Shown one piece after another: positions 2,348 to 34,465 of a stretch of DNA of 64,000 bases; position 1 is the stretch's first letter; each line of letters starts with the position of its first letter. The translations under genes were made by a program, and so were the position numbers. The DNA is from Planctomycetota bacterium (GTDB lineage Bacteria; Planctomycetota; UBA1135; GCA-002748355): positions 62,001 to 126,000 of the forward strand of contig JALSSW010000148.1 in NCBI GenBank assembly GCA_026984035.1, in the 5' to 3' direction. A model generated the notes under the pieces. It worked only from the letters and a program-made list of their open reading frames with translations. It did no database searches and was not told the origin of the DNA.

Positions 2348-2381
2348 GAATCGTCGAGAACGCCTGGTTGTGCTAGAAGGT

Positions 2382-4895: not shown

Positions 4896-4913
4896 GTAAC
4901 TTGTACAAGTTAC
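4896..4913. promoter_or_regulatory. 18 bp perfect palindrome in the hscB-hscA gap
   Basis: GTAACTTGTACAAGTTAC is identical to its own reverse complement over all 18 positions. It lies 99 bp upstream of the hscA start, in the only large gap (130 bp) inside the isc operon. A perfect two-fold site of this size is typical of an operator for a dimeric regulator. As RNA it would form a stem with almost no loop, so a DNA-level role seems likelier. The regulator is unknown. Confidence 0.45.
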
Positions 4914-4927
4914 CCAGGTCAGCCCGG

Positions 4928-5452: not shown

Positions 5453-5468
5453 TGTTGGCACTTGTTAT

Positions 5469-5891: not shown

Positions 5892-5893
5892 TT

Positions 5894-6295: not shown

Positions 6296-6338
6296 TTTTT
6301 AGCTCCTTTATGGATCTTTTTGTTTCTCGTGATTTTCG

Positions 6339-7568: not shown

Positions 7569-7640
7569 GTTCCTTGTTCCGTTTTTGTTTGGAGTTCCTA
7601 TTGGCCGAGTTTTGGCTGCGAGTTTTCCAGGAATGTCAAT

Positions 7641-8318: not shown

Positions 8319-8328
8319 TGGTTTATTG

Positions 8329-8393
8329 AAATAGCACTATTATAATGCTTCTTCAAGCTTCGAACATAAAAGAGCCCAAATGAAGTGCTATTT
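8329..8393. promoter_or_regulatory. iscR/ygfZ divergent control region with a 10 bp inverted repeat
   Basis: AAATAGCACT (8329-8338) and its exact reverse complement AGTGCTATTT (8384-8393) lie 45 bp apart in the 105 bp between the divergent starts of iscR and ygfZ. A TATAAT box is readable on both strands between them (minus strand 8344-8339, plus strand 8341-8346). The minus-strand box is 20 bp from the iscR start, so the left arm would cover the iscR transcription start. This layout suits two operator sites, possibly for IscR itself; that is inference. Confidence 0.5.
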
Positions 8394-8423
8394 GCAAATC
8401 ATTTACAAAAAAGGGGTTGAGTC

Positions 8424-10822: not shown

Positions 10823-10982
10823 TTCTTCTTTATCGGAAGTGTTTTGGGCTTAGATCCTCGGCGCGGAGAGATTCCCATGAGATGGGCCCGGCGTAAGCAG
10901 AAGGAGGGGTGTTTGGATAGATGTGAAAAGGATTTTGAACAGGCCTGGGGAAAGACTGGAAGAGGTCTCCTCACCTCGCAAG

Positions 10983-11010
10983 AATGGGCGCCTTTCGACC
11001 GGTGCCCATT
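10983..11010 (+). promoter_or_regulatory. Hairpin in the gcvP leader
   Basis: AATGGGCGCC (10983-10992) can pair with GGTGCCCATT (11001-11010) through 10 bp including one G-U, around an 8-base loop. It ends 55 bp before the gcvP start. No U-tract follows, so it is not a standard terminator. I looked for the two-aptamer glycine riboswitch and could not recognise its conserved core. Confidence 0.35.
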
Positions 11011-11065
11011 AGGTTTTCCGCAGGGGAGAGCATGGGGCCGATCTGGAGTGGAGCAGGCAAAAGAG

Positions 11066-13906
11066 ATGAGTGATTCCTTTTTGGAGAGGCATTTGGGGCC
11101 ACGGAAGACCGAGCAATCTGAGATGGTTCAAATGCTGGGATATTCCTCCCTTGGGGAGATGATTGAAGCGGCCGTTCCTCCTTCGATTCGCCTGGGGAGA
11201 GAGTTGAAATTGCCTGGTCCGATTTCAGAAGCGGATTCCATGAAACGCCTGGCTGAAGCGGCCAAGAAAAACCGCCCCTACCGAAGCTACATTGGGATGG
11301 GTTATTACGGGACCATCACCCCGCCGGTGATCCTGAGGAATATCCTGGAAAACCCCGGTTGGTATACCCAATACACCCCCTATCAACCTGAGATTTCTCA
11401 GGGGAGGTTGGAGGCCTTGCTGGTGTTCCAGACGATGGTGATGGACTTGACCGGCTTTGAAATAGCCAATGCCTCCCTTTTGGATGAAGCAACCGCGGCG
11501 GCGGAGGCGATGACCCTCTGCCAACGGGTCCTCTCTCGTGGTTCTAAGGGGCGGATGCGCTTTTTTGTGGATGAGGCCTGCCATCCGCAGGTGATTGGAG
11601 TTGTTCGCACTCGGGCAGAGCCTTTAGGGATCGAAGTCATCACCGGTTCCCTGGAGAAGCTTTCACTTGACGAGAGTTATTTTGGAGCCTTGGCCTCTTA
11701 CCCTGCTACTGATGGGCGGATTCGGGATTTGAGGGGATTCTGCGAGGAGGTCCACCGAGTTGGGGCCTTGGCTGTTGTGGATGCGGATTTGTTGGCATTG
11801 ACTCTACTTGAGACCCCAAGGGCGATGGGGGCGGACATTGCCGTAGGAACAACGCAGCGTTTTGGGGTCCCCATGGGTTTTGGGGGGCCGCATGCGGGAT
11901 ATCTCGCAACCTTAGACCCATACCGACGGATGGTGCCGGGAAGAATCATCGGGCAGACCGTCGATGCAGATGGGAGACCCGCTCTCCGCATGGCCTTGCA
12001 AACCCGAGAGCAGCATATCAGGCGGGAGAAAGCTACGAGCAACATCTGTACAGCCCAAGTTCTCCTTGCGATCATGGCCGGGATGTATGCAGTTTGGCAT
12101 GGGCCGGAAGGTTTGCTGAGGATTGGAAAAGAGATCCGGGGAAAAACCGAAGCTCTTGCAGAAGCTCTTAGGCAATTGGGGCACGAAGTACAGGAAGGTC
12201 CACTCTTTGACACCCTGCGTGTTCGGCCAGGCAAAGGAGACCCCTTTCATGAAGCCCTCGCTTTGGGGATCAACCTCCGAGACTTTGGGGATGGGAGTCT
12301 GGGGATTTCCCTGGATGAGACTGTCGAAGAGGAGGATCTTGTCCAGCTCCTCCGGGCCTTTGGTGGGGGGGCCAAGAATCTCCGGCCGGAGGTTCTTCCG
12401 GAATTGCCACGAGAGTTACGGCGCAGCAGTTCTTTCTTGCAGCATCCCACCTTCCATCTTTATCGAAGTGAGACAGAGATGATGCGTTATCTCCATCGTC
12501 TTGCGTCTAAGGACCTATCCCTTACCTCGGCTATGATTCCTTTGGGGTCCTGCACGATGAAGCTGAATGCCGCCAGTGAAATGCTGCCGATCTCTTATCC
12601 AGGCTTCGCTGACCTCCATCCTTTTGTTCCAAGGGACCAGGCTGAGGGTTATCACGAGATCCTTGATGAATTGGCCGATTGGCTCTGTGAGATTACGGGC
12701 TTCGAGGCTTGTTCCTTTCAACCTAACGCAGGGTCGCAAGGCGAATATACCGGCTTGCAGGTGATTCGAGCTCGGCATCGGAGTCTAGGGCAGGCACAGC
12801 GGAGGGTTTGTCTGATTCCTTCTTCGGCTCATGGGACCAATCCTGCAAGTTCCATTCTCGCTGGGATGCGGGTCGTTGTCGTTGCCTGCGATGAGCAGGG
12901 CAATATTGACCTCGAAGATTTGCAAAAAAAAGCCGAGCAGCATCAGAATGAACTGGCGGCCCTGATGGTGACCTACCCTTCGACGCACGGCGTTTTCGAG
13001 GAATCTATTCGAGAGATTTGCACCATTGTTCATGAGAATGGCGGGCTTGTTTATGTGGATGGGGCCAATATGAACGCCATGGTTGGGCTTGCAAGGCCTG
13101 GAGATTTGGGAGGGGATGTCTGTCACCTGAATCTGCATAAAACCTTCGCCATTCCACATGGAGGCGGGGGGCCAGGAATGGGGCCGATCTGTGTGACAAA
13201 GGAGTTGGCCCCCTTCCTCCCGAGGCATCCTGTTGTAAAGACGGGGGGAGAGCAAGGGATCGGGCCGGTGGCAGGGGCACCCTTTGGGAGTCCGTCCATT
13301 CTTCCTATCAGCTGGGCATACATTGCGATGCTGGGGGCCAAAGGACTTCGGAAGGCAACCGAAGTAGCCATCCTCAACGCAAACTATGTTGCGAAACGGC
13401 TCGAATCCGAGTATCCCGTTCTCTACAAAGGAAAAAAGGGATTGGTCGCCCACGAGTGTATTCTGGATACACGGCCCCTTAAGGCTGCCGGTATCGAGGT
13501 CAAGGATTTGGCCAAGCGTTTGATGGATTACAGCTTCCACGCACCCACCATGTCCTGGCCCGTGGTGGGGACCTTGATGGTGGAACCGACCGAGAGTGAG
13601 TCCAAGCAGGAGCTCGATCGATTCTGTGATGCCATGTTGGCGATCCGCGAAGAAGTCCGCCAGATTGAAGAAGGGAAGGCAGATCCCCGGAACAATGTTC
13701 TTAAGGGGGCCCCTCATCCCAGTTGGAGGCTTTGCAATGATTCTTGGGATGTTCCCTATTCAAGGGAGAAGGCAGCTTTTCCGGCCCCGACACTTCTCAC
13801 TTATAAGCAGTGGCCGAGTTCTGGAAGAGTGGACGAAGTCTATGGGGATCGCCATTTGGTTTGCGGTTTGCAGCAAGAAGCAGAATCCTCCTCCCCAAGC
13901 GACTAA
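11066..13906 (+). CDS. gcvP: Glycine dehydrogenase (decarboxylating), P protein
   Basis: A 946-residue single-chain P protein of the glycine cleavage system. It decarboxylates glycine and loads the aminomethyl group onto lipoyl-GcvH. Both halves of the duplicated aminotransferase-like fold are present. The PLP lysine is K692 in [16 protein letters not shown]. The N-terminal helix motif SFLERHLGP is typical and fixes the start at 11066; an upstream in-frame ATG at 10796 would add 90 unrelated residues. Many bacteria split this gene into gcvPA and gcvPB; here it is fused as in E. coli. gcvT, gcvH and the dihydrolipoamide dehydrogenase gene are not in the window. Confidence 0.95.
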
Positions 13907-21350: not shown

Positions 21351-23975
21351 CTAGCGACCCTTCTGTGCCATGATTTCTTGAGAGTTGACAATGAAGGCTT
21401 TAACTAAAACCATCAGAGAGGAGTTTTCATCAACAACCCCCTCTTCCTTAAAGAGGAAGGAGACTAAGGGAAGTTGTGCAAGCCATGGAACCTCGGCCCT
21501 GCGTTCCCGGTTGAGCACCTCATTAAGACCACCAATCAGGACAGATCCACCATCAGGGACCTTCACCGTTGTCGCCATGCTCCGAACAGTCAACTGAGGA
21601 AACTGAATGGTTACAGGCAAAGTTGTGCCTGCGAGTGCAGTGGTAAAGGTGGGAATGGGGCGGGTAAGTTCTGCAACCGTTGGCTGAAGATCCAAGGTAA
21701 TGTGCTTCCGGTCATAAGAGATGGAGGGTCGCACATCGAGAACAACGCCATCCTGGACGACGTTTACTTCAGGGTCAGCAATAAATGCGGCTTGCGCCAC
21801 TTCCACCGTGAAATCTTGAATATAGGTGGTTTGATTAATGACCGAGATATAACCGCGTTGGCCATTCAATACTGTCAGGATTTGGGAATCCACAATCTGC
21901 ACGTTGGTCTTTTTCTCGACAGCGCGAGCCAACAGATTGAGTTGGCTATCATCGAGCAGGGTAAAGCCGAATGTGGCCCCGCCGTTCGTGGTGAGAAGCC
22001 GGCCAAGGCTGTTTTGGAAGAAGTTTTCGGTTCGTCCCCGGAAATCGCCATCCAGGCCGTCATCGTAAAAGAAACCGCTGACGGGGTGGGAGTTGACTCC
22101 TCCCGTCCCATTGTTATCCAAGCCACGGGAAGCATTGTCATCCAAACCGTTTGTGACATCATCCAAAGTGACAACCCGTCCTTTAGCATTAGCTCCACCA
22201 AGGCCACGGAAATCGACACCAAATTGTTGGAGCCAATTCCGATCCACCCGAAGGAACCTGGACTCGATGTTGACCATGCTCGAAGTGAACTTACGGAGGT
22301 CATCCAGAAACCTCGAAACTTGTTCTTGGACTTCCGGAGTATGGGTAACAATGAGGTTCGCGTCCGTGGCTTCAATCGAAACCCCCTCGTTTTCCCAAGT
22401 ACCTGGGGCAACTGCCTTTTGAACAAGGCTTGCCAACACTTCTGGATCAATCATTTTAACCGGATCGCCAATTTGACCGCCTTGGCGAGGTTGGTCCTCG
22501 GGAGCTTCTTCTCCAACAATCGGGATATCTTTGATTTGCGGGCCGGCAAAATCAGCCAAGCCAAAAGTCAGGTCTTGGATCTTATGAACCTTGAGCGTGG
22601 GTTTGCCCATGGCTTTTGCCTTGGTGGTAAGGAGGACGGCTCCATCTTCGATGGTCCAGGCTATCTCCCCCTTGCTTCTTGTGGACATCAGGTTGAGAAA
22701 ATTGCGAACCGAAAGGGGGGATTCGAGCTTCATGGTCAACACAAGCTCATTGCTGTCGATGACTTCTTGGGCTTCGGGGGTTACCAGGATGGGGAGTCCG
22801 GTAACTTTGGCCAAGTAGCTTGCAACTTCCGCATAACCACCGCTTTCATCGGTAAATTCTGCTCCTTTGGGCACGCGAAGCTCGGAGAGTTTCTTCTCCA
22901 AAGCAAGGTTATCTGGGTCTTTCTGGGTTTTGCTGCTGGAGTCCTCGGCACGAATCTTGGAAATCTTGTTCCAATATTCGGGAGTGGGCTTTACCAGAAT
23001 GTCCGTATAGGGGATTTTTTTCTCTTCATTCGCTTCTTGGAACTTTTTAAAGGCCCTGGCTTTTTCAACTAGATAGGAGTCCTGCGCTGCATTCCGAAGA
23101 GCCTTCTCACTTACGGAATAGAGGTCTCGCCCTACTCGACTTAGGGGATCAATCCGAAGGGCTTCCTCTGCGTGTTCCAGAGCAGAGCGGTAATCATGGT
23201 TTTCGAAGGCCTTTGTTCCTTTAGCGAGGTGGAAGTCTGTCCGGGCTTTGCGGCGCTGCCTTTCCAGTTCCTCCTGGCGACGCCGTTGGGCAAAAGCTTG
23301 ACGTTGAGCGTTTTCTTGGGCCTTAAGGAGAGCACTTTCTTGGGCAGCTTCAGCTTTTTTCAGAAGGGCCTCAGCCGTTTTTGGGATGTCTTTCCAATTG
23401 ATGTTGGAACCAATTTCAACTCTGAGTTCTACCTTTTTCAGCTTCCGGATCGCTTCCTCATACTTTCCGTCCCTCATATCCTGTTTTGCTTGGGAAATGA
23501 GCTGATGAGCTTCTCCAATATCTTTTTGAATTCGAAGCTCTGCGAGCTTCCTCATGTGTTCGCCGTAGGTGATCAAATCACCTTGACGTTCTCCGAGAAG
23601 TGTTAGGATCTCGTTATAGACCTTGCGCGTTTCTGGGCGGTCACGATCCAATTCAAGGGCTTTCATGGCAGCCAACTTGGCTTCTTCATAGCGATTATCT
23701 GCCATGAGCCGACGAGCCTTTTTCAAGGCGTTTTCAATAAGGAAATTCTTTTGTTGCGCGGAAAGGGTTCCCAAGCCCTGGTTTCCGGATTCGCGGGAGT
23801 GATTTCCCGTGGGATTCTCTCCTGGAGAGGTTTTGGAAGGAGATTGGGTCTCACTCTTGGCTTGTGCCTTAGATGGATTTGGGGAGTTCTCCTCTGAAGT
23901 CGCCGTACAAGAAAGCACGAGAAGGGAGAGGCCGAAAACGGGAACGGAGAGATACCGTTTGAGATCTAGGGACAT
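21351..23975 (-). CDS. TPR-secretin lipoprotein A
   Basis: An outer-membrane secretin-family protein of 874 residues from the ATG at 23975. A signal peptide ends in a lipobox (LSLLVLSC). The N-terminal part has TPR-like repeats (LMADNRYEEAKLAAMKALEL; DYRSALEHAEEALRIDP) and charged helices. A short ring-like domain follows (LPILVTPEAQEV), then a domain ending in VTHTPEVQEQVSRFLDDLRK. The C-terminal secretin region begins with ESRFLRVDRNWLQQFGVDFR and includes GVVLDVRPSIS and VPDGGSVLIGG. It carries the motif FYDDGLDGDFRGRTENFF shared with the second secretin at 31715-34465. Last gene of the TolQ/TolR locus, preceded by a 667 bp gap that may hold its own promoter. It belongs to no classical type II or III secretion operon here. 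Confidence 0.75.
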   Translation of the reverse strand: MSLDLKRYLSVPVFGLSLLVLSCTATSEENSPNPSKAQAKSETQSPSKTSPGENPTGNHSRESGNQGLGTLSAQQKNFLIENALKKARRLMADNRYEEAKLAAMKALELDRDRPETRKVYNEILTLLGERQGDLITYGEHMRKLAELRIQKDIGEAHQLISQAKQDMRDGKYEEAIRKLKKVELRVEIGSNINWKDIPKTAEALLKKAEAAQESALLKAQENAQRQAFAQRRRQEELERQRRKARTDFHLAKGTKAFENHDYRSALEHAEEALRIDPLSRVGRDLYSVSEKALRNAAQDSYLVEKARAFKKFQEANEEKKIPYTDILVKPTPEYWNKISKIRAEDSSSKTQKDPDNLALEKKLSELRVPKGAEFTDESGGYAEVASYLAKVTGLPILVTPEAQEVIDSNELVLTMKLESPLSVRNFLNLMSTRSKGEIAWTIEDGAVLLTTKAKAMGKPTLKVHKIQDLTFGLADFAGPQIKDIPIVGEEAPEDQPRQGGQIGDPVKMIDPEVLASLVQKAVAPGTWENEGVSIEATDANLIVTHTPEVQEQVSRFLDDLRKFTSSMVNIESRFLRVDRNWLQQFGVDFRGLGGANAKGRVVTLDDVTNGLDDNASRGLDNNGTGGVNSHPVSGFFYDDGLDGDFRGRTENFFQNSLGRLLTTNGGATFGFTLLDDSQLNLLARAVEKKTNVQIVDSQILTVLNGQRGYISVINQTTYIQDFTVEVAQAAFIADPEVNVVQDGVVLDVRPSISYDRKHITLDLQPTVAELTRPIPTFTTALAGTTLPVTIQFPQLTVRSMATTVKVPDGGSVLIGGLNEVLNRERRAEVPWLAQLPLVSFLFKEEGVVDENSSLMVLVKAFIVNSQEIMAQKGR

Positions 23976-24642
23976 CCGATAAGCCTTTGGAAGCCAGGAT
24001 CTGAAGAAAGGAAGCCCATCCCTTCCCCCCGCTTGCTGGAAGTGGAAAGTAGAGGGCTGATGACCCATATCTTTCAGACCGTGGGACGTTCAAGAACAGA
24101 AAAATCAAGAATTTGCGAAAAACGCCTCGCAAACAAACCCAGGGGGGAGGGCAACCCCGTTTTATCCGAAACCTACCCCAAGGATAGGATCCGGATGGAA
24201 TACGATGCTGAAAAATTAGCAGAGGATGGGGCGGCGGAAAAGATGTTTTTCCAGGCTTTCCTCATGAAGGGTCTTGGGACCCAAAGATGGTTTCAAGGCC
24301 CCCTGCCTCTTCGTGATCCTTCTCCTCCATGAGAATGCCTTTGGTCCATCCCGGAGGATGATTTAAACACTTTTTGCTTGTTCCCAAATCCATGGGACTC
24401 AAGCGGTGGGGGGGGGTGGGAGAAGGCTTCTTGGAGCCCGAAGCCTTCCTCAAAAGCTTTGCTTCAAGGTTTGGAGGACTTTGATGAATGCTGAGGAGGG
24501 AATCCCCTTAGTGGATCGCGCTGCAAAGGTTCGGCAGGATGAACCCTTAAGCCTGATCCTTTGTCAGAAAGAGGAAACAGACTTATGGGAAAAAGCAAAA
24601 ACAAAGATCAAAAGTCCAAGGAAAGGTCCTCTTCTTTGTGGT
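23976..24642. other. 667 bp gap between the second tolR and secretin A
   Basis: No convincing gene: the short open frames here lack family features. A perfect 9 bp inverted repeat, GAAGGCTTC at 24422-24430 and GAAGCCTTC at 24440-24448 (9-base loop), could be a terminator stem after the tolR gene, although no T-tract follows it on the minus strand. A run of nine G residues lies at 24408-24416. The space is large enough for a promoter for the secretin gene, but I cannot point to a clear one. Confidence 0.5.
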
Positions 24643-25203
24643 TTATTTGCGTTTCCCGCGTTTTGCCCTCTGCTGGGCTCGTGTTCCTTCGCCACCTCCG
24701 AAGGTGATTTCTTCGAATTTGGCATCGAGAGCGATGTCGACTACGGCTGTCACATCTCCATAGGTCACACCCGGCCCAGCTTTGATGGTGATCGGCTTCG
24801 TCTTCATCGTTTTAGTTTTAGGGTCCAAAACTTTCTTTTTCGCCTGTTTACGAAGCTCTTTTTCCAAACCCGGAATGGAGCTGACCTTTTTTGGCCCAAT
24901 GTACCAATAGACCCGGTGTCCGATTAACTCAAAGCGACGTTGGTTATTGGCATAAACCGTATTGGTCATTTTCTTTTTCCCCCAACCTCCCTTGGGGCAA
25001 ACAATCCGGATATCGAGTTTATCCATGGGGGGAGCCTTACTCGTGTTGACACCAACGTCTTTGGGAAGGTTGGCAGCCAATTTCCCCTCGAGAGTCTTAA
25101 ATTCAAGGCAAAGGAAGAAGATGATGATCAAAAAGGTGACGTCGATCATCGGCGTCATGTCCATTTTAACATCGCCTTCGAGCTTTCTTTTTTTTCTAGC
25201 CAT
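24643..25203 (-). CDS. ExbD/TolR-family protein 2
   Basis: A 186-residue inner-membrane protein. A short basic N-terminus (MARKKRKLEGD) leads into a single transmembrane helix beginning MDMTPMIDVTFLIIIFF. D21 is the conserved proton-path aspartate of ExbD/TolR/MotB. The periplasmic part ends with YGDVTAVVDIALDAKFEEIT, the usual ExbD ending, and has a longer central insert plus a basic tail. It would form the ion channel with the TolQ homologue at 26079-26837. It is separated by 85 bp from the first TolR-like gene. Confidence 0.88.
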   Translation of the reverse strand: MARKKRKLEGDVKMDMTPMIDVTFLIIIFFLCLEFKTLEGKLAANLPKDVGVNTSKAPPMDKLDIRIVCPKGGWGKKKMTNTVYANNQRRFELIGHRVYWYIGPKKVSSIPGLEKELRKQAKKKVLDPKTKTMKTKPITIKAGPGVTYGDVTAVVDIALDAKFEEITFGGGEGTRAQQRAKRGKRK

Positions 25204-25288
25204 GATGTTTCCTTTTCACCCCCCCCGGGGGGCATTACAGCTTTTTCCTCGTAAAAGGGAGCCGTAAAAGCGGTTTTTCAATACTTCC

Positions 25289-25801
25289 TTACTTGGAGGG
25301 TTTCTTTTTACTGTCAGCGTCTTTGGGTTCACCCACCGCGAGTTCCACTTTCCAAATCAGGATCTTCTGGTTTCCGCAAAGCTCCATGATCTTCGCAATA
25401 TGATGCATCTCTGTCCATCGATCAGCCCGGATCAAAAGAGCGTCCTGAGGAAGGACCCTTTTCAAATCAGGATCCATTTTTTTTACCATCAAAGTGTTGG
25501 CAAAATAGTCCAGGAGCTTGAGCAACTTGGAATAATTTTCCCCATCACTGGGTTGCCAAAAGACCTTGGTTCGGTAGACGACGGTTCCGTCTTGTCGGAC
25601 ATTGAGGATGGGACGCTTCCGTCCAGGTTCAGGCTCATCGGGGATGGCATGGATGGCCTTTGGCAGGACCAAAGGTTCGAGCTCTTTGTTTTGGAGATCG
25701 ATGATGAGGAAAAAGAAGATGATCAACTGAAAAATACAGTCGATCATGGGCGTCATGTCCATGTCGGTTTGATTTGAAACAGCGCGACTTCGTCTACTCA
25801 T
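25289..25801 (-). CDS. ExbD/TolR-family protein 1
   Basis: A 170-residue inner-membrane protein with the same plan as its neighbour: a short N-terminus, the transmembrane segment MDMTPMIDCIFQLIIFFFL with the proton-path aspartate D21, and a periplasmic domain with QDALLIRADRWTEMHHIAKI and LCGNQKILIWKVELAV. Two different TolR-type proteins beside one TolQ-type protein suggest a heteromeric motor. The same stoichiometry of genes is known from the Myxococcus AglRQS gliding motor. Confidence 0.88.
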   Translation of the reverse strand: MSRRSRAVSNQTDMDMTPMIDCIFQLIIFFFLIIDLQNKELEPLVLPKAIHAIPDEPEPGRKRPILNVRQDGTVVYRTKVFWQPSDGENYSKLLKLLDYFANTLMVKKMDPDLKRVLPQDALLIRADRWTEMHHIAKIMELCGNQKILIWKVELAVGEPKDADSKKKPSK

Positions 25802-26078
25802 CCTTATTCACCTGATTTTTGAAAGCGACCAAAAGAGGCTTTCCACTCATCCCAACTGCAACAGGAAGGATCCCTTTCCAGGACTTTCTTACCAACATCT
25901 GGGAACTAACGGGGACGACATTGAATGGCCAAAAGAACCCTTCCAGGTTCGTCCATCCCTGAAAGGTTAAAGAAACGCATCGTTTCCAAGACGGTTCAAG
26001 CATAAAGGTGGGGGGGAGCCCCAAACCGTTTAGAGGACAGGTTTGGAAAAACTTCCCTGACCCAAAGCTTGTCCTCAA
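25794..26078 (-). CDS. Doubtful 94-residue frame filling the TolQ-TolR1 gap
   Basis: An open frame starts directly after the stop of the TolQ-like gene and overlaps the TolR1 start by 8 bp, so it would fit an operon. The translation (ending KNQVNKDE) has no recognisable domain, signal or repeat. It could be a real small gene or non-coding spacer; I lean to non-coding. Apart from this frame the 277 bp shows nothing I can name. Confidence 0.2.
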   Translation of the reverse strand: MRTSFGSGKFFQTCPLNGLGLPPTFMLEPSWKRCVSLTFQGWTNLEGFFWPFNVVPVSSQMLVRKSWKGILPVAVGMSGKPLLVAFKNQVNKDE

Positions 26079-26837
26079 TTATTCGTCTTTTGAGCGGAAA
26101 CGTTCAAAGAGTTCCTCCACCATCCCACCGATTTCAATGGAAGCCATTGTGACTCGGTTCCGAAGGAACACATAAACGGTGGTCACAGGAATGGCGACAA
26201 CGAGACCAAGCAGGGTTGTAATCAATGCTCCCTTAATACCTGCAGCGAGATCGTTAGGCTTAACGGATGGCTTTAAGGCGATTTCACCAAAGGCCGCCAC
26301 CATACCATTCACAGTACCAAGCAAACCCATCATGGGGGAGATTGCCGCAATCAAAGAAAGCCAGCCGATTTTATTTCCCAGCTGAACATCTTCTTCTTCT
26401 GCCGCCTCTTGGAAGGCCGTGGCGATCACGTTGTAGTTATGACCCAGCTTATCGAGGCCGGCTGCCACAACATTGGTTAAGTAGCAAGGCTCAGCCTCGC
26501 ACACATCCATCGCCTCGTCAAATTTCCCTTCATCAAACAGGGCCTCCAGCTCTTCCTGGAGATGAGGGGGAGCAAGCTTTTCACGTTTGATAGACATGAA
26601 GTCTTCGATGATCAAGGCAAGCGCCACAATGGAGACCAAGATAATAATATAACCGATCACCCCCGCACTCTTCAGAATATCTTCGAGAAGGGATGGGGCT
26701 GTTTTTTTGGCCGTGCTGGCTGCACCTTCTTGTGCGAAGGCAGAGGAAATGGCGAAGCCTGTAGAGGCCACGATGGTCATTGCGAAAAGGGAAAGGCCGT
26801 TCATTCGACCTTTGAAAAGAGGAGAAGGGATTTTCAT
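26079..26837 (-). CDS. MotA/TolQ/ExbB proton channel protein with N-terminal signal-like extension
   Basis: A 252-residue membrane protein. The first hydrophobic stretch looks like a cleavable signal (MTIVASTGFAISSAFAQEG). Then come three ExbB/TolQ membrane helices: IGYIIILVSIVALALIIEDF, the segment SLIAAISPMMGLLGTVNGMV with the GLLGTVxGM signature, and ALITTLLGLVVAIPVTTVYV. It uses the proton gradient with TolR/ExbD partners to do work in the periplasm. The alternative start at 26804 gives a more compact signal. It is the first gene of the tolQ-tolR-tolR group. Confidence 0.88.
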   Translation of the reverse strand: MKIPSPLFKGRMNGLSLFAMTIVASTGFAISSAFAQEGAASTAKKTAPSLLEDILKSAGVIGYIIILVSIVALALIIEDFMSIKREKLAPPHLQEELEALFDEGKFDEAMDVCEAEPCYLTNVVAAGLDKLGHNYNVIATAFQEAAEEEDVQLGNKIGWLSLIAAISPMMGLLGTVNGMVAAFGEIALKPSVKPNDLAAGIKGALITTLLGLVVAIPVTTVYVFLRNRVTMASIEIGGMVEELFERFRSKDE

Positions 26838-27170
26838 TGCCTTGGAATCTCTCCGTGTATTGCGGAAAGCAGGCTCTGGGGATCCCCCGGAAGTCTTGCT
26901 TTCCTGGCTCGTAAAAAAAGTCTCAAGAGGCTTAAGAATTCATGAAAGCAGAGTCGCAAAACCTACCTTGGTCCTCTGGATACGGACTGTCGGAAATTTT
27001 TGCATCTCGAAAAAAAGTTCTTCCCGGGGCTTGGGAAATCAAAGAATAAGATTCTGGCCTGGATGACCTCCGATGAAAAGAGGTGATCCAGAAGTTTTGT
27101 GCAAACTCCCACAAGATTGGAAGGGGAGAAGGGGGCAAAGGGCTCTCGGAAGGGGTGTGGGAAAGAGAAA
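26838..27170. other. 333 bp gap upstream of the TolQ-like gene
   Basis: No gene seen. It probably contains the promoter of the tolQ-tolR-tolR group and holds the terminator-like hairpin listed at 26913-26936. Confidence 0.4.
26913..26936 (-). terminator. Weak intrinsic terminator-like hairpin
   Basis: On the minus strand CTTAAG-CCT-CTTGAG (26936-26922) forms a 6 bp stem including one G-U, followed by AC and seven T residues (26919-26913). It lies 235 bp after the stop of the TPR gene at 27171 and before the TolQ-like start. If real it would separate the TPR genes from the tolQ group. The stem is weak. Confidence 0.3.
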
Positions 27171-28472
27171 TCATTTCTTTTTTAGCATGGCTTGGGCCTT
27201 GATTCCCCAGGGACTGTTTGGGAATCCTTGGGCAACATCCTCCAAAAGAAGGGTGCTGCGAACTCCAAAATCGTTTCCTTCCCCCTTTTTTCCTAAAAGA
27301 AGAATGAGTTTGGCCAAGAGATACCGGGCTTTAGCTGTTGCATCGCTGTTATGGATGTCTGTAGCCGAAACTTGGCTAAAGAGGATTTGAGCTTTTCGGA
27401 GAAGTCCTTGATCCTTTTCTTCTTTTCCCATTTCAAAGAGGGCTTGCCCCTCTCCACACTGAGCAGCAGGAAAAAGGAGGCTTTTGGGGCCTGCTTTTGT
27501 TTGAAGGTTGGCGAAGTAGCGGCGAGCATCTTTGAAACGCCCCTCGGAAATGTAGCATTCTCCCTCTCCAACCTTTGCTGCAACTAGGAGAGCCTGAATC
27601 TTGAGGTCGCCATTTTTGGCCAAAGACGACAAACTGGTGGAAGCAGAGAGATAGGCGCCACGAGCCTTTTGAAACTTCTTCATTTGGACAAGAGCCCTTC
27701 CCTTACCAAAGGTCCCACGAGCCGACCAAGCTGGGCTCAGGCTTTTTTCATTGGCGAGTTTGTCGAGTTTGTCAAAAACAGCCAGAGCTTCTTTGGGCTT
27801 TTTTGCCAAAAGAAGCACATCCCCAAGGAGTTGATACCCTTCTGGGGTCCTTCGGTGAGCAGGGTTCTTTTTGAGCCAGGCTTGCAAAGCTGAAATAGCA
27901 GCATCAGCTTGAGAGGGATTCCCTTGAGCATGGAGAGTTAATGCCTTCGCAGCGCGAAATTCACTTTCAGCCTTGAGAGGAGCGCGGGAGGAGTTAGAAG
28001 CGGCATCCTCAAAGAGATTCGCCGCAAGATGATATTCCCCGCGTTCTTCGGCAAGAACAGCACGTTGAAAAGAATCGGGAATAGGATTCCAGTCAATGGA
28101 GAGGACTTCATCGGAAGGTACGGTGTTTTCCTTTCCCCCTCTCTTGTATTTCACTTCAAGGATTCCCTCTTCGAGGATTTCGACATTGCGAATCGCTTGT
28201 CCGCCGATTTTCCGGATCTGATCTCTCGCCTTGCCCTTTTTTTGCCAAACTCCAGGCTCCACGCGATATTTTCCCGGAAAATCCTTTCCAGAAGAAAGCC
28301 CGAGGATTTCCTTCGGAGAAATGCAAGGGAGAGAACTCAGCGTAAAGAGGGGGAATAAAATAAGACCTAGTCGTTGAAAGGATGTATTCATTCGCGTCGA
28401 TGTCTGGTTTGAAAGCGATGGAATCGCTATCCCGAAAGGCTTCCTGGAGATTATAGGGAAGTTACGTTTCAT
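27171..28472 (-). CDS. Exported TPR-repeat protein (433 residues)
   Basis: The protein is made mostly of helical TPR-like repeats (for example AVLAEERGEYHLAANLFEDA; PEGYQLLGDVLLLAKKPKEA; GECYISEGRFKDARRYFANL). A hydrophobic export signal lies at residues 33-50 (LGLILFPLFTLSSLPC). Two starts are possible. The ATG at 28472 overlaps the stop of the upstream TPR gene by 4 bp, typical of coupled translation, but puts 27 residues before the signal. The ATG at 28391 gives a normal signal peptide. It probably works in the periplasm or at the outer membrane as a scaffold with the 958-residue TPR protein; no enzymatic motif is present. Confidence 0.7.
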   Translation of the reverse strand: MKRNFPIISRKPFGIAIPSLSNQTSTRMNTSFQRLGLILFPLFTLSSLPCISPKEILGLSSGKDFPGKYRVEPGVWQKKGKARDQIRKIGGQAIRNVEILEEGILEVKYKRGGKENTVPSDEVLSIDWNPIPDSFQRAVLAEERGEYHLAANLFEDAASNSSRAPLKAESEFRAAKALTLHAQGNPSQADAAISALQAWLKKNPAHRRTPEGYQLLGDVLLLAKKPKEALAVFDKLDKLANEKSLSPAWSARGTFGKGRALVQMKKFQKARGAYLSASTSLSSLAKNGDLKIQALLVAAKVGEGECYISEGRFKDARRYFANLQTKAGPKSLLFPAAQCGEGQALFEMGKEEKDQGLLRKAQILFSQVSATDIHNSDATAKARYLLAKLILLLGKKGEGNDFGVRSTLLLEDVAQGFPNSPWGIKAQAMLKKK

Positions 28473-31345
28473 GGCTTCAACCTCAGGAAGAGTCTGTAGA
28501 TTTTTTTGCCTTCAGCCCCCAAGCCCTTGAGGGTCTCGAAATCATCTGTTGAGTTGGCAATATTGAACAAACTCTTGGCGAAGTCGAGATAGTCTGAGTT
28601 GCCCTTTCTGCTTGCCTTTAAGGCCATATCCAAGCAATCCAGATAGAATCGGTACCAAGGAAGGCTGTATTTTTTTACTTTTTTGGATTGGATATAGCGC
28701 CGGTAACCCTTTTCGCCCCAGAGAAGGTCGTATGCTTCTTCAAAGCGCTCTAAACCTCCAGGGTTAATAATCCGTCCATCTTGATCCATGTCTATCCATC
28801 CCCCCAGAGCCCGGGCCTTGAGAAGTTTTAATTGGTAGCTCTTGGGGCGGAGTTTGATGGCGTCATTCAGAAGCTTTAAGGCTTTCCGGAACTCCATTTT
28901 TCTGAGGAGGATTTCTGCAAGTTCAGGCTTAATGAACTTGTTGATTTTGCTCTTTTCTTTTGGAGAGTTTTCAAAAACTTGAATAATTTTCTGGAGGAAG
29001 AGTTCCGCCTGGTCCCAATCTTTGATTTCAGAAGCAAGCTTCGCTGCCTTACGAAGAAGCGCGTAATCGGGGCTTTTTTCATTTTGCAAATAGGTTCGTG
29101 CAAAACTAAGCGTCTTCAACACATCTAACTTAAATCGTTTTCGGATTTCAATGAGGTCCTTTTCCGCTGCTGGGTCCTTGGCGGCTTTGTCTTCAAGGGC
29201 CTTCATTTCCTTTCGAATTTCTGATACCCGGCCATTTCTTGCAGAAAAAAGAACCATTGCTGCTTGAGAAAGTTGGGGAGATTTGGGGAAATCCTTGGTG
29301 AACCTTTGGTATTCAAGTTCGGCTGTTTCAATCTGCTCCAAACCCACATACCCCCGGATCAAATAAAAGGAGGCTAGCTGGGCAAAGGAAGCCATTGAGG
29401 TATTGCCCTTGTATTTCTCCCGGAATCCACGAAAGGACTCAATAATTTTCTTGAGCTTTGTTGGGTCGGGTTTGTGGCCCTTCATTTTGCCCGTTCCTAG
29501 AGCTTCTTCAGCATTCATGAGACCTAGGTAGAAGCGGGCTTGACCAATGGCGATTTCTCGCACAGAAATCCGTTGCGTTTCGCTGGGGGGGAGTTTGTTG
29601 TAGGGGTCGTTTACATACTTTAAGAACTTCTTGAGTTCCTTTCGGGCGCTGTCAAAGTCCTTAAGTTTGTAGTAGACGATGGCCTTGTAAACCGGAACTA
29701 AGTCAAAACGGATAAAGTCCTTTCCAATCTGGGCTAGAGGACGGAGAGCCTTTTTGGGATCACGACTGTCAAGGGCAGCCTGCACTTTGTTCCAAAGGAT
29801 TCGGTTCCGACTTCTGCCTCCCGTACTGACAGCGATGCGATTGGCTTCTTCCTCCAAAGCCTTAAAGAAAGGATCCTTGGTTGCCTTTTTTTTCATACGG
29901 ATGACGCCAACGAGCCTGTCCACAATGGCTGAGGCAAAGGCTTCATCTGTGTGGCGAAAATTCTTGAGGCCTTCCCTGAAGGCAAAGAAAGCTTCAAGCA
30001 GCCTTCCTTGGCGCCTGAAGGCATCTCCCATTTTGCCCCAAGATCGGAGGCCGTATTTATTTTTCTCTTCTTCCGTTTTGAGGGCAGCAAGGACCTTTTT
30101 GAAGCCTTCAATGGCCTGTCGGTTTTTTCCTGATTGGAAATCTCCAGAAGCCGCCTGATAGAGAGCCTCTGCGCTAATGTTACCTCCCGCGACGGTAAGG
30201 ATCTGCTTGATGAGTTCCTTGGCCTTGAGACCAATAAAATCGGTGGGGTGCCTTCGTGCTACCTTGCGAGCTGTTTCGAGGGCCTGGTTGATGTTTTGCT
30301 GAGAACCGGTGTCAACAAGTGCTTGGGCCCCATTGAGCAAGACCTGGTCTCCAAGATTGAAGCTGGGATCCCTCTCGAACTCTTTGGAAATTGTTTTGTA
30401 GTTTTTTAGGTGTTTGAGGACCTCTTTGGTTTTTCCTTCTCGAAGGAGAACTTCTGTTGTTTTTACGTATGCCCGTTCCAAGATGTTGAAGAGCAAAGCC
30501 CCTTGTGCGGGAGTCACTGGGTTGTCCTGGTCTCTCAATCGCTCGGAAACAATTTCAACCGTATCGTTAAATTGAGAGATGGCCATTTCGGTATCACCGA
30601 GAACATCCTGGCATTGAGCGATTTCCAAAAGACCAATCATTCCAAGCGGGGTCTCTTCTCCCGCGTCAAGGACCATGTCCTCCAGAGTCGTCACCGCTTC
30701 CTTTACCTTAATGGTGCGGTCCTGTGGGACCACTCTTCCCCACTCCCTCTGGAGCACTCCTTTCCGGAGCCAAGAGCGATAATAAAAAAGGCGAGCTCTT
30801 GAAGCCTCTTCTCTTTTATCTTCCGTCCTGTCCATCAAATCGTTACAGGCTTGGATCCCTTTGGTGTAGACCTGAATCAATTCCTCTTGGAGAGTCTTAC
30901 GTTTATCCGGATCTTTCTCCGCTTCTTGGGCTTGCCTCAGATAATCTCCAAAAAATTCACAGGCTTCTCCTAAGTTATAAAGAACTTCAAGAGCGCCATC
31001 CTCACGGCCATATTGAGCTAAGTAATCTTCAAATTTTTGGAGAGCTTTCTGGAGGACTTGGCGGCGCCGATCAAGGTCTGGAATCCTTTTGGCTCCGAGA
31101 TAGAGAATCTCAGCTTCAAGCTGGGCCAGAAGTTGATCATCCAGTGCACCTGAAGAGTTCTTCCTTAACTGATTCAATGCATCTTTGGCGAGGTCAACGA
31201 ATCCCCAATCTTTCGCCAATTTCCGGATGAAGCTCACTTCTTTCTGAATGGCCTCTTTCTTTGCCTCAGTTTGCGCCGAAAGGGGGGCGGCAAGAAAAGA
31301 AAAAAGGAGGAGGGGAATTGCGACTCGCAGGGATCGAGGAATCAT
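28469..31345 (-). CDS. Large exported TPR-repeat protein (958 residues)
   Basis: From the ATG at 31345 the protein begins with a classic signal peptide (RVAIPLLLFSFLAAPLSAQ). Nearly the whole mature chain then consists of TPR-like helical pairs, including TEVLLREGKTKEVLKHLKNY, KMGDAFRRQGRLLEAFFAFR, ELEYQRFTKDFPKSPQLSQA and ILLRKMEFRKALKLLNDAIK. Such solenoids act as periplasmic binding scaffolds. It overlaps the next TPR gene by 4 bp at most and lies between the two halves of the secretin/TolQR locus. An earlier in-frame start at 31429 is less likely, because it would bury the signal. I recognise no specific family. Confidence 0.75.
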   Translation of the reverse strand: MIPRSLRVAIPLLLFSFLAAPLSAQTEAKKEAIQKEVSFIRKLAKDWGFVDLAKDALNQLRKNSSGALDDQLLAQLEAEILYLGAKRIPDLDRRRQVLQKALQKFEDYLAQYGREDGALEVLYNLGEACEFFGDYLRQAQEAEKDPDKRKTLQEELIQVYTKGIQACNDLMDRTEDKREEASRARLFYYRSWLRKGVLQREWGRVVPQDRTIKVKEAVTTLEDMVLDAGEETPLGMIGLLEIAQCQDVLGDTEMAISQFNDTVEIVSERLRDQDNPVTPAQGALLFNILERAYVKTTEVLLREGKTKEVLKHLKNYKTISKEFERDPSFNLGDQVLLNGAQALVDTGSQQNINQALETARKVARRHPTDFIGLKAKELIKQILTVAGGNISAEALYQAASGDFQSGKNRQAIEGFKKVLAALKTEEEKNKYGLRSWGKMGDAFRRQGRLLEAFFAFREGLKNFRHTDEAFASAIVDRLVGVIRMKKKATKDPFFKALEEEANRIAVSTGGRSRNRILWNKVQAALDSRDPKKALRPLAQIGKDFIRFDLVPVYKAIVYYKLKDFDSARKELKKFLKYVNDPYNKLPPSETQRISVREIAIGQARFYLGLMNAEEALGTGKMKGHKPDPTKLKKIIESFRGFREKYKGNTSMASFAQLASFYLIRGYVGLEQIETAELEYQRFTKDFPKSPQLSQAAMVLFSARNGRVSEIRKEMKALEDKAAKDPAAEKDLIEIRKRFKLDVLKTLSFARTYLQNEKSPDYALLRKAAKLASEIKDWDQAELFLQKIIQVFENSPKEKSKINKFIKPELAEILLRKMEFRKALKLLNDAIKLRPKSYQLKLLKARALGGWIDMDQDGRIINPGGLERFEEAYDLLWGEKGYRRYIQSKKVKKYSLPWYRFYLDCLDMALKASRKGNSDYLDFAKSLFNIANSTDDFETLKGLGAEGKKIYRLFLRLKP

Positions 31346-31714
31346 CTTAAAATACGGTACCCGTCTGCTGAGGCCATGTTCATTTGGTCCTTCCAAGGGA
31401 GCACTGGAGGGACAAGGGTGCAAAGACACCCAGAACGATTTGAAAAAGGAACGGAATATTCTAGCGGAGGTTCACTCCAGGACCAGGAGCTGCTCGGAAA
31501 GCTTTTGAATTCCTTGGTCATTGTGCCTCCATGCTGGTGGCTGAAAGGGCGCTGATCCTTTGCTGCATTCTTCCTTGAGAAAAACCCCGAGAGATCTCGG
31601 CCTGGAGGAAATACAATTCTGAAAATCCGAAACCCACTCGAGTTTCGTTAATTCGAGAAGACTGCATAGCCAAGAGGCTAGGCGCCCTAGCCTCTTGGCT
31701 TGTGTGGAGTGGGC
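31346..31714. other. 369 bp gap after secretin B
   Basis: No gene seen. It contains the strong hairpin at 31668-31700 directly after the secretin stop, and presumably a promoter for the two TPR genes. Confidence 0.45.
31668..31700 (-). terminator. 15 bp perfect hairpin just after secretin B
   Basis: AGCCAAGAGGCTAGG (31668-31682) and its exact complement (31686-31700) enclose a 3-base loop. The hairpin begins 14 bp after the minus-strand stop of the secretin gene. No U-tract follows on the minus strand, so besides Rho-independent termination it could be an RNA 3'-end stabiliser that lowers, but does not abolish, read-through into the TPR genes. Confidence 0.6.
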
Positions 31715-34465
31715 TTAGCGTTCCTCACTCAGGTCAGGCTCCGATTCGCTAGGAATAATGATTTTTGCGCGAAGAAGAATCAAAATCTTCTTGTTGGCGT
31801 TATAGGTTCCCTTCTTACGGAAGAAAAACCCAACAAAAGGTATGTCTTTTAGGATCGGAACTCCGGACTCAAACTTTTGTTTTTGAGTGGACTTCATTCC
31901 ACCGAGGAGCAGCTTGCCGTTGTCGGGCATTGTTATGGTCGTACGAACCTTCTGAACCGTTAACCTGGGTATCTGGATCGAAACAGGTTGTCCTACACCT
32001 AAGGTGGTCGTGAAGGTGGGGATTGGTTGCGCCAAAGTGGCCACAGTGGGGCGAAGTTCCATTAAAATAAAACGCCGGTCAGCAGAGACCACGGGACGAA
32101 CATCCAGAACAACCCCATCCCGTATGACCCCAATCACTGGGTCGGCAACGGCGGCAGACTGAGCAATTTCGACCGAAAAGTCCCGAATGTAGGTGAATTG
32201 ACGGTTTACGGCCAGGTTGGCTCGGGCAGCGTTGTGGATCAGAAGCCGAGGGGCCGCCAGTTGCTCCACCCTCTCCTTTTTGGAGACACTTCGGAGGATT
32301 GTCTCCAATTCCGTATCGTCAAGGAAAGTGTATTGGAAGGAGAGGCCCCCAGCGTTGGAGAGGCCCTCGGGACCTCCTCCTAGTGTTTGATCAAAGAGGT
32401 TTTCTGTGCGGCCATAGATATCTCCGTCAAGTCCATTGTCATAAAACACTCCCGGTTCAAATCCGGTTCCAATGGCACCCGGTTGCGATGCAGAAATGTT
32501 GCGTCCGAAATCGTCGAAAGCAAATCCTGCACGATTTCCATGTTTCTGGAGGCCAAGGCCTGGCTTTCCTGTGGAGGCTTGATTTCCCAAGCCTCGAATA
32601 TCGACGCCGATTTCTTCTAGGAAATTATCCTCTACGCGAAGGAATCGGGCTTCAACATCAACTTGAATCCCTGAGCTACTGCGTAAATCTTTGAGCAGAG
32701 CATCGATTTTTTTATGGACTTCGGGAGTTTGGGTGATGACCAGGGCGGTTTCGCCCGAAGGCTCAACCCCGGCTCCTTCCTTTTCCCAGCTGCTGGGATC
32801 AATGTTTGTTGTGATAATCGATTGAAGCTTATCCAAGTCGACGACCGCTGGGACCGGCTCGGGTGGCTCAGGAGCTTCCTGAGGCTCCCCGGGCCTAAGG
32901 ATCAAATCCTTACCGGGATGGTCCTTGATTTTATTGACAATTTCTCGAACGTCATAAATCACGGGGACCATGGTTCCGGCGCTTTCCTCGTCCCCAAGAA
33001 TCATGACAACGCCATCACGGATGGTCCATTGAATGGGCTTCACCCGGGCGATCAGGTCCAGTCCTTGGGCGACAGAGCGCTTCCCAAGTTTAAGATTGAG
33101 GGTTGTTGCCGATTCGTCAAGCTCCTGGGCTGCACTACTCACCAAGAAGTTCAAGCCAGTTGCTCTCCGATAAGCATCGACCCAATCCTCGATGGGTGTC
33201 TCGGTAAAGTTCTGTTGGATCACAACCTCGTTCAGTTTTTTCTGAATCAGAGCTGTGTCAGGGTCCACTGTTACCTTGGTGCTGGAAAAGGAGAGTGGTT
33301 TTCGATTCGAGATCTTTTTCCAATGCTCCAAATCCAACTTGACCGTATCGGTCTGAGTGATGTCCATCCGTTTCAGATTTTCAAAGGTTGCAGTCCATTC
33401 CTGGCGCCATTTCCTCTTCAATGAATCCATGGATTGGTCGTGTCGAGCCCGCATGGCGAGTTCTCGAAGATCCCTGGCATCCTTGTTTACCGGGTCGATC
33501 TTAAGGGCTTCATCCAAATAGCGAACCGATTGGTCATATTGCCTGCCCTGGAAGGCCAAGTTCGCCTGTTCAAAAAGATAGCGAACCCGAACCCGGCGGC
33601 GGATTCTCTCCTTTCTCTCTTCGGCTGCCAGCTTCATTCGCGCAGTGCGAGCGCTTTTTTCAGCTTGCTTTTGAATCCACTTGGTTTTCATCGCCTTTGC
33701 TTGCTTCAACTTGGCATTCAGGCGCTTCTCAAGGGCAGATCCTGGGGTGAACCAGGGAGAGTAGCGGAGGGTTAATGCAGCCCTTTGGTAATTCTCAATG
33801 GCTTTCTCGTAGTTATTTTCTTCTGCATAGAGATCACCCTTATTCTCATAGCTGCGGGCAACCGAAAAATCCTTTTGCTTTTCGATCTCAGCACGGGTCA
33901 TCGCATCCCGGCTGGCCTGTCCCAGGGAAGGCTCTCTCTCACCAAGGGCTGTTTGGGCCTTCCTAAGGAGGGAACGAGCGGCTTCATTGTTGGGGTCGAG
34001 TTTGAGGACCTCACCCGTTGCTTTGACGACATCTTCAAAAAGCCTGAGATCCCATGCTCGGCGAGCCTTTTTCAGATTTGTTTGGATCAGGAAGTTCCGA
34101 CGTTGCATTGCAGGCGATGGCTTTCCACCTTGTATTCCTTCCTGAGAATTATCCTCTCGAGCTCCTGCTTTAGAGGAATCTCCAGGTAGGGGTTGACCGG
34201 ATTCTGCGTCGATTCTTCCGGAATCCTTTTGAGAGGACTCCAGGTGAGTCTCCTGAGCTAAATCCTTTGTGGGCTGTGCTTCACCAGCAATATTCATGCT
34301 GCCGGAATCCGCATCGGCAGCACCTGAACAAGCGACCGGAAGGGTCGCAGTCAGGAACGCGCAGAGCGGGAGGGCAACCATACGAGTTGCCCACCGGGGA
34401 AGGACCACGGAAAGGGGGGAAAGGTTTTCGTTTTTTCGGCGGACCGTCAATGGGCTCTTTCTCAT
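31715..34465 (-). CDS. TPR-secretin lipoprotein B
   Basis: A 916-residue paralogue of secretin A. A long basic N-terminus precedes a signal sequence with a lipobox (PLCAFLTATLPVACSG). A low-complexity acidic linker and TPR-like repeats follow (NYEKAIENYQRAALTLRYSP; RQYDQSVRYLDEALKIDPVN). Next come a ring-like domain (FTETPIEDWVDAYRRATGLN), a domain ending in TQTPEVHKKIDALLKDLRSS, and the secretin region from ARFLRVEDNFLEEIGVDIR to FVGFFFRKKG. The motif FYDNGLDGDIYGRTENLF matches secretin A. The two are clearly related throughout but diverged, which suggests distinct or hetero-oligomeric roles. First gene of the locus. Confidence 0.75.
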   Translation of the reverse strand: MRKSPLTVRRKNENLSPLSVVLPRWATRMVALPLCAFLTATLPVACSGAADADSGSMNIAGEAQPTKDLAQETHLESSQKDSGRIDAESGQPLPGDSSKAGAREDNSQEGIQGGKPSPAMQRRNFLIQTNLKKARRAWDLRLFEDVVKATGEVLKLDPNNEAARSLLRKAQTALGEREPSLGQASRDAMTRAEIEKQKDFSVARSYENKGDLYAEENNYEKAIENYQRAALTLRYSPWFTPGSALEKRLNAKLKQAKAMKTKWIQKQAEKSARTARMKLAAEERKERIRRRVRVRYLFEQANLAFQGRQYDQSVRYLDEALKIDPVNKDARDLRELAMRARHDQSMDSLKRKWRQEWTATFENLKRMDITQTDTVKLDLEHWKKISNRKPLSFSSTKVTVDPDTALIQKKLNEVVIQQNFTETPIEDWVDAYRRATGLNFLVSSAAQELDESATTLNLKLGKRSVAQGLDLIARVKPIQWTIRDGVVMILGDEESAGTMVPVIYDVREIVNKIKDHPGKDLILRPGEPQEAPEPPEPVPAVVDLDKLQSIITTNIDPSSWEKEGAGVEPSGETALVITQTPEVHKKIDALLKDLRSSSGIQVDVEARFLRVEDNFLEEIGVDIRGLGNQASTGKPGLGLQKHGNRAGFAFDDFGRNISASQPGAIGTGFEPGVFYDNGLDGDIYGRTENLFDQTLGGGPEGLSNAGGLSFQYTFLDDTELETILRSVSKKERVEQLAAPRLLIHNAARANLAVNRQFTYIRDFSVEIAQSAAVADPVIGVIRDGVVLDVRPVVSADRRFILMELRPTVATLAQPIPTFTTTLGVGQPVSIQIPRLTVQKVRTTITMPDNGKLLLGGMKSTQKQKFESGVPILKDIPFVGFFFRKKGTYNANKKILILLRAKIIIPSESEPDLSEER

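Follow-up and report, generated by a model that had tools for sequence, protein, structure and literature searches.

A peptide block shared by two planctomycete secretins encoded with ExbB and ExbD genes recurs in unrelated proteins and is a candidate recognition motif

Results

Two secretins of one operon share a conserved block

We analyzed a stretch of 64,000 nucleotides (hereafter, the window) from a Planctomycetota bacterium of the GCA-002748355 lineage (NCBI GenBank assembly GCA_026984035.1, contig JALSSW010000148.1, positions 62,001 to 126,000 of the forward strand). Its minus strand carries, at window positions 21351-34465, a seven-gene operon in the order secretin B, tetratricopeptide repeat (TPR) protein, TPR protein, ExbB, ExbD, ExbD, secretin A. 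A first inspection of the sequence (the original prediction) had noticed that the two secretins share a nearly identical block of 18 residues at the same place. This is indeed the case: FYDxGLDGDxxGRTEN occupies the same alignment position in A and B, with 14 of the 18 residues identical, and the block coordinates given then were right to within about two codons. The features concerned are as follows.

31715..34465, minus strand: TPR-secretin B, 916 aa, first gene of the operon (PF00263, E 4.1e-28, plus TPR matches)
21351..24068, minus strand: TPR-secretin A, 905 aa, last gene of the operon (PF00263, E 7.6e-25)
32393..32446, minus strand: B copy of the block, FYDNGLDGDIYGRTENLF, residues 674-691, translated
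22017..22070, minus strand: A copy of the block, FYDDGLDGDFRGRTENFF, residues 667-684, translated
22113..22166, minus strand: A-type pre-block motif, LDDVTNGLDDNASRGLDN, partly present in some non-secretin proteins too

A and B are paralogues with 33% identity over 819 alignment columns. Only 2 of the 888 18-residue windows of their alignment reach 14 identities, both inside the block, and 13 identities occur in two separate windows of the secretin core; the block is thus the best, though not the sole, conserved stretch. Across 54 genomes, mean A-B identity is 25% directly before the block, 52% within it and 40% after it; the C-terminal core has 44% and the N-domains have 24%. The original prediction had also described the sequence upstream of the block as strongly diverged. 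This is true between A and B; within A, however, the upstream stretch (LDDVTNGL..DNAS..LDN.G) is strongly conserved, and G641, D651, N652, G654, P662 and G665 are invariant in every scored A row (56 or 57). Similarly, the proposed enrichment in D, G and N (44% of the block) exists relative to the downstream stretch (30% in A, 33% in B) and to the upstream stretch of B (34%), but not to that of A (46%).

The R and E of the R-x-E element are both kept in 48/57 A and 56/58 B proteins of the window's class, and in 15/15 A and 31/38 B proteins from the rest of the phylum. Of the four turn positions, three or more are D or E in 51/57 A and 36/58 B proteins of the class. Since Asn, Ser and Thr can also ligate calcium, we recounted the turn with these residues; at least three positions are then D, E, N, S or T in 55/57 A and 55/58 B proteins of the class and in 14/15 A and 29/38 B proteins elsewhere, which is about equal to the counts of the R-x-E pair. 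Judged from these alignments, the stable core of the block is an aromatic residue, a D/N/G turn and R-x-E-N. The recount would fit a loop for calcium or another metal, as the original prediction suggested, in which the D/N-rich turn would bind a metal that stiffens the gate, other proteins using the same small module; the D-G-D turn, which recurs in most of the copies in other proteins described below, agrees with this too. When only carboxylates are counted, however, three of the four positions are kept in just 7/15 A and 11/38 B proteins outside the class, the R and E, which would have no role in metal binding, are conserved no less than any turn position, and neither a Pfam model better than E 0.047 nor any PDB chain matched. 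The turn counts speak neither clearly for calcium binding nor clearly against it, and we consider a metal loop possible but unlikely.

Co-evolution of the A and B blocks within genomes was considered and rejected: same-genome pairs are more alike than random ones (0.522 versus 0.478), yet there is no gain over near relatives (p 0.43).

The block marks a secretin subfamily

A search with secretin A matched all 61 genomes of our order sample (G007 only at 4e-10) and, at E <= 1e-30, 148 of the 154 genomes of the class. From 54 sequences we built a 50-position profile (A4) of the block and its surroundings; it matches 110 of 294 Planctomycetota genomes (E <= 1e-3), mostly twice per genome. As controls we used 33 loci, represented by their longest open reading frames (ORFs): 4 from the window's genome and 29 from among the best PF00263 matches of 40 relatives. 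The block profile matches all 168 A and B proteins, of which 166 had trained it, and gives no match above -0.4 bits in the 33 control loci. The secretin frame was recognized in 28 controls (L002, L003, L004, L184 and L196 being dropped), on which the full profile reaches at most -1.9 bits. Together with L002-L004, confirmed separately, this gives 31 further secretins from the order whose frame is confirmed, and the block is absent from all of them. Held-out profiles behave in the same way. Above the best of the 28 controls lie 94/96 B proteins when training on A, 72/72 A proteins when training on B, 50/53 proteins from the rest of the phylum when training on the class, and 36/38 B proteins of the phylum when training on the A proteins of the class.

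Searching PDB with the block gave no matching chain (the single result, at E 2.4, is an unrelated protein). In a Pfam search of 54 block members, three families were hit by one member each, at E 0.047 or worse. Taken alone, the block regions of A and B gave no match to NCBIfam models, a result that says nothing on the block in Amuc_1098. When named genome contigs were searched with the full-length protein, one relative emerged, the metagenome-assembled genome "Planctomycetota bacterium isolate HyVt-539", on two contigs. Outside the Planctomycetota, the search for the block covered PDB, plasmids and phages. Among the matches listed, 11 of 15 from plasmids (25 records) and 10 of 10 from phages (44 records) start at query position 88 or later, the block ending at 89; four plasmid matches listed, from Sinorhizobium, cover the block at 23% identity.

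We built a FastTree phylogeny (SH-like support) of 106 secretins with the apical region left out, including every seventh A and B of the class. One split separates 72 block-carrying from 34 block-free secretins with support 0.99. Within the carriers, A minus one member (L139) has support 0.996 and B minus two members 0.903; L172 and L154, labelled B by score, group with A. Taken together, profile searches, held-out splits, the tree and the PDB search indicate that the block marks a secretin subfamily, as had been proposed.

In three loci (L254, L260 and L261), the two secretins are mutual nearest neighbors on the tree, which suggests that the pair there may have been repeatedly duplicated or gene-converted.

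The block lies in the apical region

Both secretins have N-terminal TPR repeats (Pfam) and a C-terminal secretin module, for which PF00263 gives 87.9 and 98.5 bits against a cut-off of 27.5, placing both in the family. We modeled them with AlphaFold2 (B, m0e480caae117, pLDDT 80.7; A, m276b3e4d685c, pLDDT 75.1). In structural comparison, both models are most similar to solved secretins: 5wq9 (Z 14.7, rmsd 6.2, 268 aligned) and 5wq8 (Z 14.3) for B, and 6ve2 (Z 12.9, rmsd 6.9, 282 aligned) for A, matches within 1 of Z being taken as tied. Although the block was first thought to precede the membrane-inserting part, both models place it instead inside the long loop that connects the first long secretin strand with the second (first strand, 498-523 in the A model and 497-521 in the B model; next strand from 599 and 604, respectively). 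A short hairpin is drawn at the block (residues 665-669/675-679 in A, 673-675/683-685 in B), with the D/N-rich turn in between. Mean pLDDT over the block is 45-46 in the A model and 48-55 in the B model. An unstructured, variable loop had been named as the case that would speak against the original prediction: the loop is of low confidence in both models, but its sequence is conserved.

In secretins of type II secretion systems (T2SS), an "apical region" has been defined, and a length of at least 80 residues linked to a top gate (PMC10550240). In the ring of a top-gated secretin, beta-hairpins converge over the pore; our two models are of monomers. We delimited this region from our alignment rather than by the exact motifs of that paper.

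21936..22211, minus strand: apical (top-gate) region of A, residues 620-711, 92 aa (tree alignment bounds and model)
32303..32599, minus strand: apical (top-gate) region of B, residues 623-721, 99 aa (tree alignment bounds and model)

The apical region measures 82-117 residues in 72/72 carriers, all above the 80-residue rule (PMC10550240). The threshold is also passed by 17/34 non-carriers, which lack the block. The region is acidic, with a median net charge of -7 (A) and -8 (B) in carriers versus -2 in non-carriers. A gate loop, one of the functions first suggested for the block, fits its place in the two models and in the apical region as defined in that text. N-termini resembling a lipobox by a loose pattern occur in 39/57 A and 38/58 B proteins of the class; the B protein of the window gave no match.

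Could the block then be only a structural hairpin of the top gate, inherited from the secretin that preceded the duplication and serving to close or narrow the pore? Its apical place and hairpin in the models, the single split on the tree, the charge difference and the length of the region in all 72 carriers are what one would expect. The 17 non-carriers with a long apical region but no block speak against it, as do two observations reported below. If copies in other proteins were old in-frame pieces with no shared role, as this explanation has it, they should decay, whereas their amino acids are kept with synonymous codons at chance in 15/15; and the five unrelated kinds of host are left unexplained. 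We hold a purely structural role to be unlikely.

In another secretin of the same genome (L001, contig C158), and also in L198, what seems to be the corresponding hairpin loop contains thrombospondin-3-like sequence (DTDGNGLPD, DTDSNGLPD).

The motif recurs in non-secretin proteins

The first copy outside the secretins appeared as an A4 profile match in a frame of 2983 residues. Searching 32 genomes, chosen partly for third matches (so that the proportion is not a prevalence), we found the motif in 15 non-secretin proteins of 15 genomes, with per-genome E from 1.2e-15 to 6.4e-5. Not counted are a 231-aa frame at a contig end (G391:C383, E 1.1e-8) and three matches at E 0.055-0.099. The hosts are of five unrelated kinds: a giant protein of about 2666 aa (presumed start) with a C-terminal membrane helix, in seven genomes (the single member scanned matches neither Pfam nor NCBIfam); two alpha-2-macroglobulins; three VWA/YfbK proteins; one VIT-VWA-TPR and one VIT protein; and one DUF4349 protein with a lipobox-like start. 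Judged by eye from signal or membrane segments, they look extracytoplasmic. The motif sits in a linker, sometimes together with the A-type LDDVTNGL stretch. Among 13,507 ORFs of our loci, all non-secretin matches of at least 24 bits are in such hosts, and the next match has 7.0 bits. A block-carrying secretin is also present in 14/15 host genomes.

In the 13 copies that align without gaps (those of L345 and L346 need one and were left out), R is kept in 13/13, E in 12/13 and N in 12/13. Such constancy in a short, linear motif, found in linkers and loops of several kinds of envelope proteins, would suit a modification or processing site at which an envelope enzyme (a protease, glycosyltransferase or similar) acts on several surface proteins. 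The motif is, however, embedded in a long conserved secretin loop, where cleavage would cut a barrel protein, and we find a site of this kind decidedly unlikely.

Some hosts resemble the secretins over more than the block. In L346 the similarity extends over most of the apical region (A profile, independent E value (iE) 2.9e-22). The linker of L350 (genome G363, 2132-4801) has four separate pieces like secretins A and B, two of them strong (iE 9.6e-14 and 4e-10); the other two are weak, with best iE values of 3.2e-5 and 0.0075. One stretch of the G363 protein resembles a segment of A that we presume to be the central-gate strand, a name resting on GspD alignments; it matches positions 746-765 of the A profile with iE 0.0025, and the B profile with 3.2e-5.

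21771..21821, minus strand: segment IQDFTVEVAQAAFIADP of A, presumed central-gate strand; similar stretch in one non-secretin protein (genome G363)

These cases allow for a gate-derived peptide code, in which linker peptides of membrane-anchored envelope proteins would mimic loops of the cell's own secretin pair, and hence insert into the gates or compete with them, such clients opening, plugging or riding an ExbB/ExbD-driven double-secretin machine. The loops mimicked would be the A apical loop and the B apical block, plus, in L350 of G363 only, the central-gate-like DFDVxIAQAAxIA. We regard such a code as possible but rather improbable.

The giant-protein family, predicted to be membrane-anchored, is exemplified by L278 1409-9406, with homologues in L347-L350, L293 and L296. 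Its relatives occur in 51/294 genomes of the phylum (E <= 1e-10), the window's genome not being among them.

Amino acids, not codons, are kept

For each host we took the best-matching secretin and compared the number of identical codons among identical residues with the expectation from the codon usage of both genes. Identical codons are at expectation in 15/15 comparisons (p 0.18-0.86), while the amino acids are kept; in five of them (G363, G393, G314, G310 and G166) the secretin is from the same genome. Since synonymous codons are at chance, recent copying, misassembly or a DNA element is unlikely, and selection on the amino acids of the motif is likely, as far as these alignments tell.

Rickettsial palindromic elements encode in-frame peptides inside unrelated proteins. 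Our motif is like them in being one peptide in unrelated proteins, but differs in that synonymous codons are at chance, so that the DNA is not the conserved unit. A selfish in-frame element, a DNA-level repeat or an assembly artifact spreading sequence into unrelated genes would account for short DNA matches between copies (among the matches listed, for example, 94.7% over 38 bases and 91.5% over 47 bases). Yet these are explained by high GC content at third codon positions, the codon result holds in all 15 comparisons including the five within one genome, and the copies differ in their flanks and come from 15 genomes. We therefore deem an origin at the DNA level extremely improbable.

The copies also resemble the secretins of their own lineage. 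Among 187 distinct segments, the best-matching secretin from the host's own family has rank 1 in 8/15 cases and rank 3 or better in 13/15 (Fisher p 1.2e-6, kinship ignored), G249 being a clear exception (rank 15).

The operon combines a secretin pair with ExbB and ExbD

Between the two secretins lie five genes.

28469..31429, minus strand: TPR protein 1, 986 aa (Pfam TPR; conserved position)
27171..28472, minus strand: TPR protein 2, 433 aa (Pfam TPR)
26079..26837, minus strand: ExbB/TolQ/MotA-type proton channel protein (PF01618, E 7.8e-25)
25289..25801, minus strand: ExbD/TolR protein 1, membrane segment MDMTPMIDCIFQLIIFF (PF02472, E 8.4e-13)
24643..25203, minus strand: ExbD/TolR protein 2 (PF02472, E 2e-12)

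The ExbB and ExbD families score above their cut-offs (PF01618, 87.5 bits; PF02472, 48.9 and 47.7 bits). We surveyed 66 loci of at least 5.5 kb, each holding both secretins. In 58 of them the genes between B and A include ExbB and one or more ExbD genes, with the exact seven-gene order in 37; six have none of the five genes between the secretins and two have a TPR gene only. Among 20 stretches from deeper groups, the block is absent from all, and 17 have no Exb gene in the stretch, L250, L251 and L254 being those that do.

Like ExbB/ExbD-TonB and Tol-type systems, the operon has an ExbB gene and two ExbD genes that encode the typical membrane motif; it is unlike them in that its outer-membrane part is a secretin pair and that no TonB gene is found among the seven; the nearest TonB_C match lies at about window position 1670-1852. 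The window's genome has three ExbD genes, two in the operon and the third on contig C107, where its neighbors encode a TonB_C protein and a TonB-dependent receptor. This gene content suggests an outer-membrane gate that would be driven by a proton-fed ExbB/ExbD motor.

Several known secretins resemble A and B. Amuc_1098 (PilQ) of Akkermansia muciniphila also has a TPR N-terminus and a C-terminal secretin, in 907 residues (PMC4960237). Its layout of TPR N-terminus, N-domains and secretin is seen in both A and B (Pfam and models), and its family NF042912 is the best NCBIfam match of B (E 3.3e-34, 118 bits). A and B nevertheless score 56.3 and 118 bits, far under the family cut-off of 750. With Vibrio-type top-gated GspD they share the C-terminal secretin module and an apical loop of over 80 residues, the published threshold (PMC10550240); they differ from GspD in their N-terminal TPR repeats and in the block, which PDB chains lack. 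Membership in GspD (TIGR02517; 74.6 and 73.3 bits versus a cut-off of 351.35) and in PilQ (TIGR02515; 70.4 and 67.8 bits versus 284.35) was rejected. No T2SS ATPase, platform or pseudopilin gene is found among the operon genes, to which, and not to the rest of the genome, this search was applied. Among the papers listed by our literature searches, which did not cover subscription papers or preprints, we saw no mention of the operon or the motif.

Further observations concern neighboring sequences and other genomes. An ORF at window 1562-2461, about 20 kb from the operon, has a TonB_C match of 44 bits. In 13 genomes of the phylum that are 90-100% complete (L236-L248), a TPR-secretin frame of 751-1564 aa is free of the block and has no Exb gene in the stretch. 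In L251 (positions 1-12883, genome G212), TPR, TPR, ExbB, ExbD and ExbD follow a single secretin in a frame of 1835 aa; the stretch ends there, and a second secretin may lie beyond. Finally, a tmRNA gene with the tag ADTHYAMAA occupies window 49150-49504.

Discussion

Among the explanations considered, a recognition motif best explains these observations, ahead of a structural hairpin, a metal loop, a modification site and a selfish element. We would give an even chance to the hypothesis that the block is a protein-level docking or recognition motif for a putative common partner; contact with a partner, which the original prediction had also suggested, is favored because unrelated envelope proteins carry the same peptide. 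We infer a hairpin fold, exposure at the secretin mouth, coupling to the motor and docking, and propose the following mechanism. The block would be the conserved core of a peptide motif that sits in the apical loop and probably forms a short beta-hairpin, its turn rich in D and N. Both TPR-secretins would form an outer-membrane gate, driven by the ExbB/ExbD proton motor. One partner per genome would read the motif, which at the secretin mouth may recruit or position this partner, and in other proteins may direct these either to that partner as well or to the secretin.

Several points weigh against this hypothesis. No partner protein was found for the block, and should the apical loop be extracellular but the remaining hosts periplasmic, a single partner would need access to both sides. 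The low confidence of the block in both monomer models (mean pLDDT 45-55) makes the hairpin weak evidence. The codon test used the host's own-genome secretin in only 5/15 cases, and the copies were found by amino-acid similarity, so that selection follows from them by inference. Seven of the 15 hosts are mutually homologous and the families are related, which renders the lineage p-value optimistic. The A and B blocks of one genome resemble each other no more than blocks of near relatives do (27 up, 26 down, p 0.43). Copies outside the secretins were seen in some families only: four genomes of the window's class (G000, G003, G024 and G008) show only two secretin copies (E <= 0.1), and host genome G320 (89% complete) shows no block-carrying secretin in the search that found its copy, which may reflect a true absence or a gap in the assembly. 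Lastly, the same operon layout exists without the block in L254, L256, L257, L258 and L259; the machine therefore does not need the motif, and the block is the signature of one branch only.

Secretins are the gates of pilus and secretion machines that use ATPases. A conserved secretin pair encoded with ExbB and ExbD would make up a secretin machine with a different source of power. In planctomycetes, the uptake of large molecules is an active process that is unexplained, and the uncoupler carbonyl cyanide m-chlorophenyl hydrazone (CCCP) stopped the uptake of green fluorescent protein; crateriform outer-membrane complexes have been the subject of speculation by the same authors (PMC5394234). 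The operon is a candidate part of such an uptake process. If the docking hypothesis is true, the motif offers a direct handle on this machinery, as a bait peptide for the partner and as the source of a first list of the proteins that carry it.

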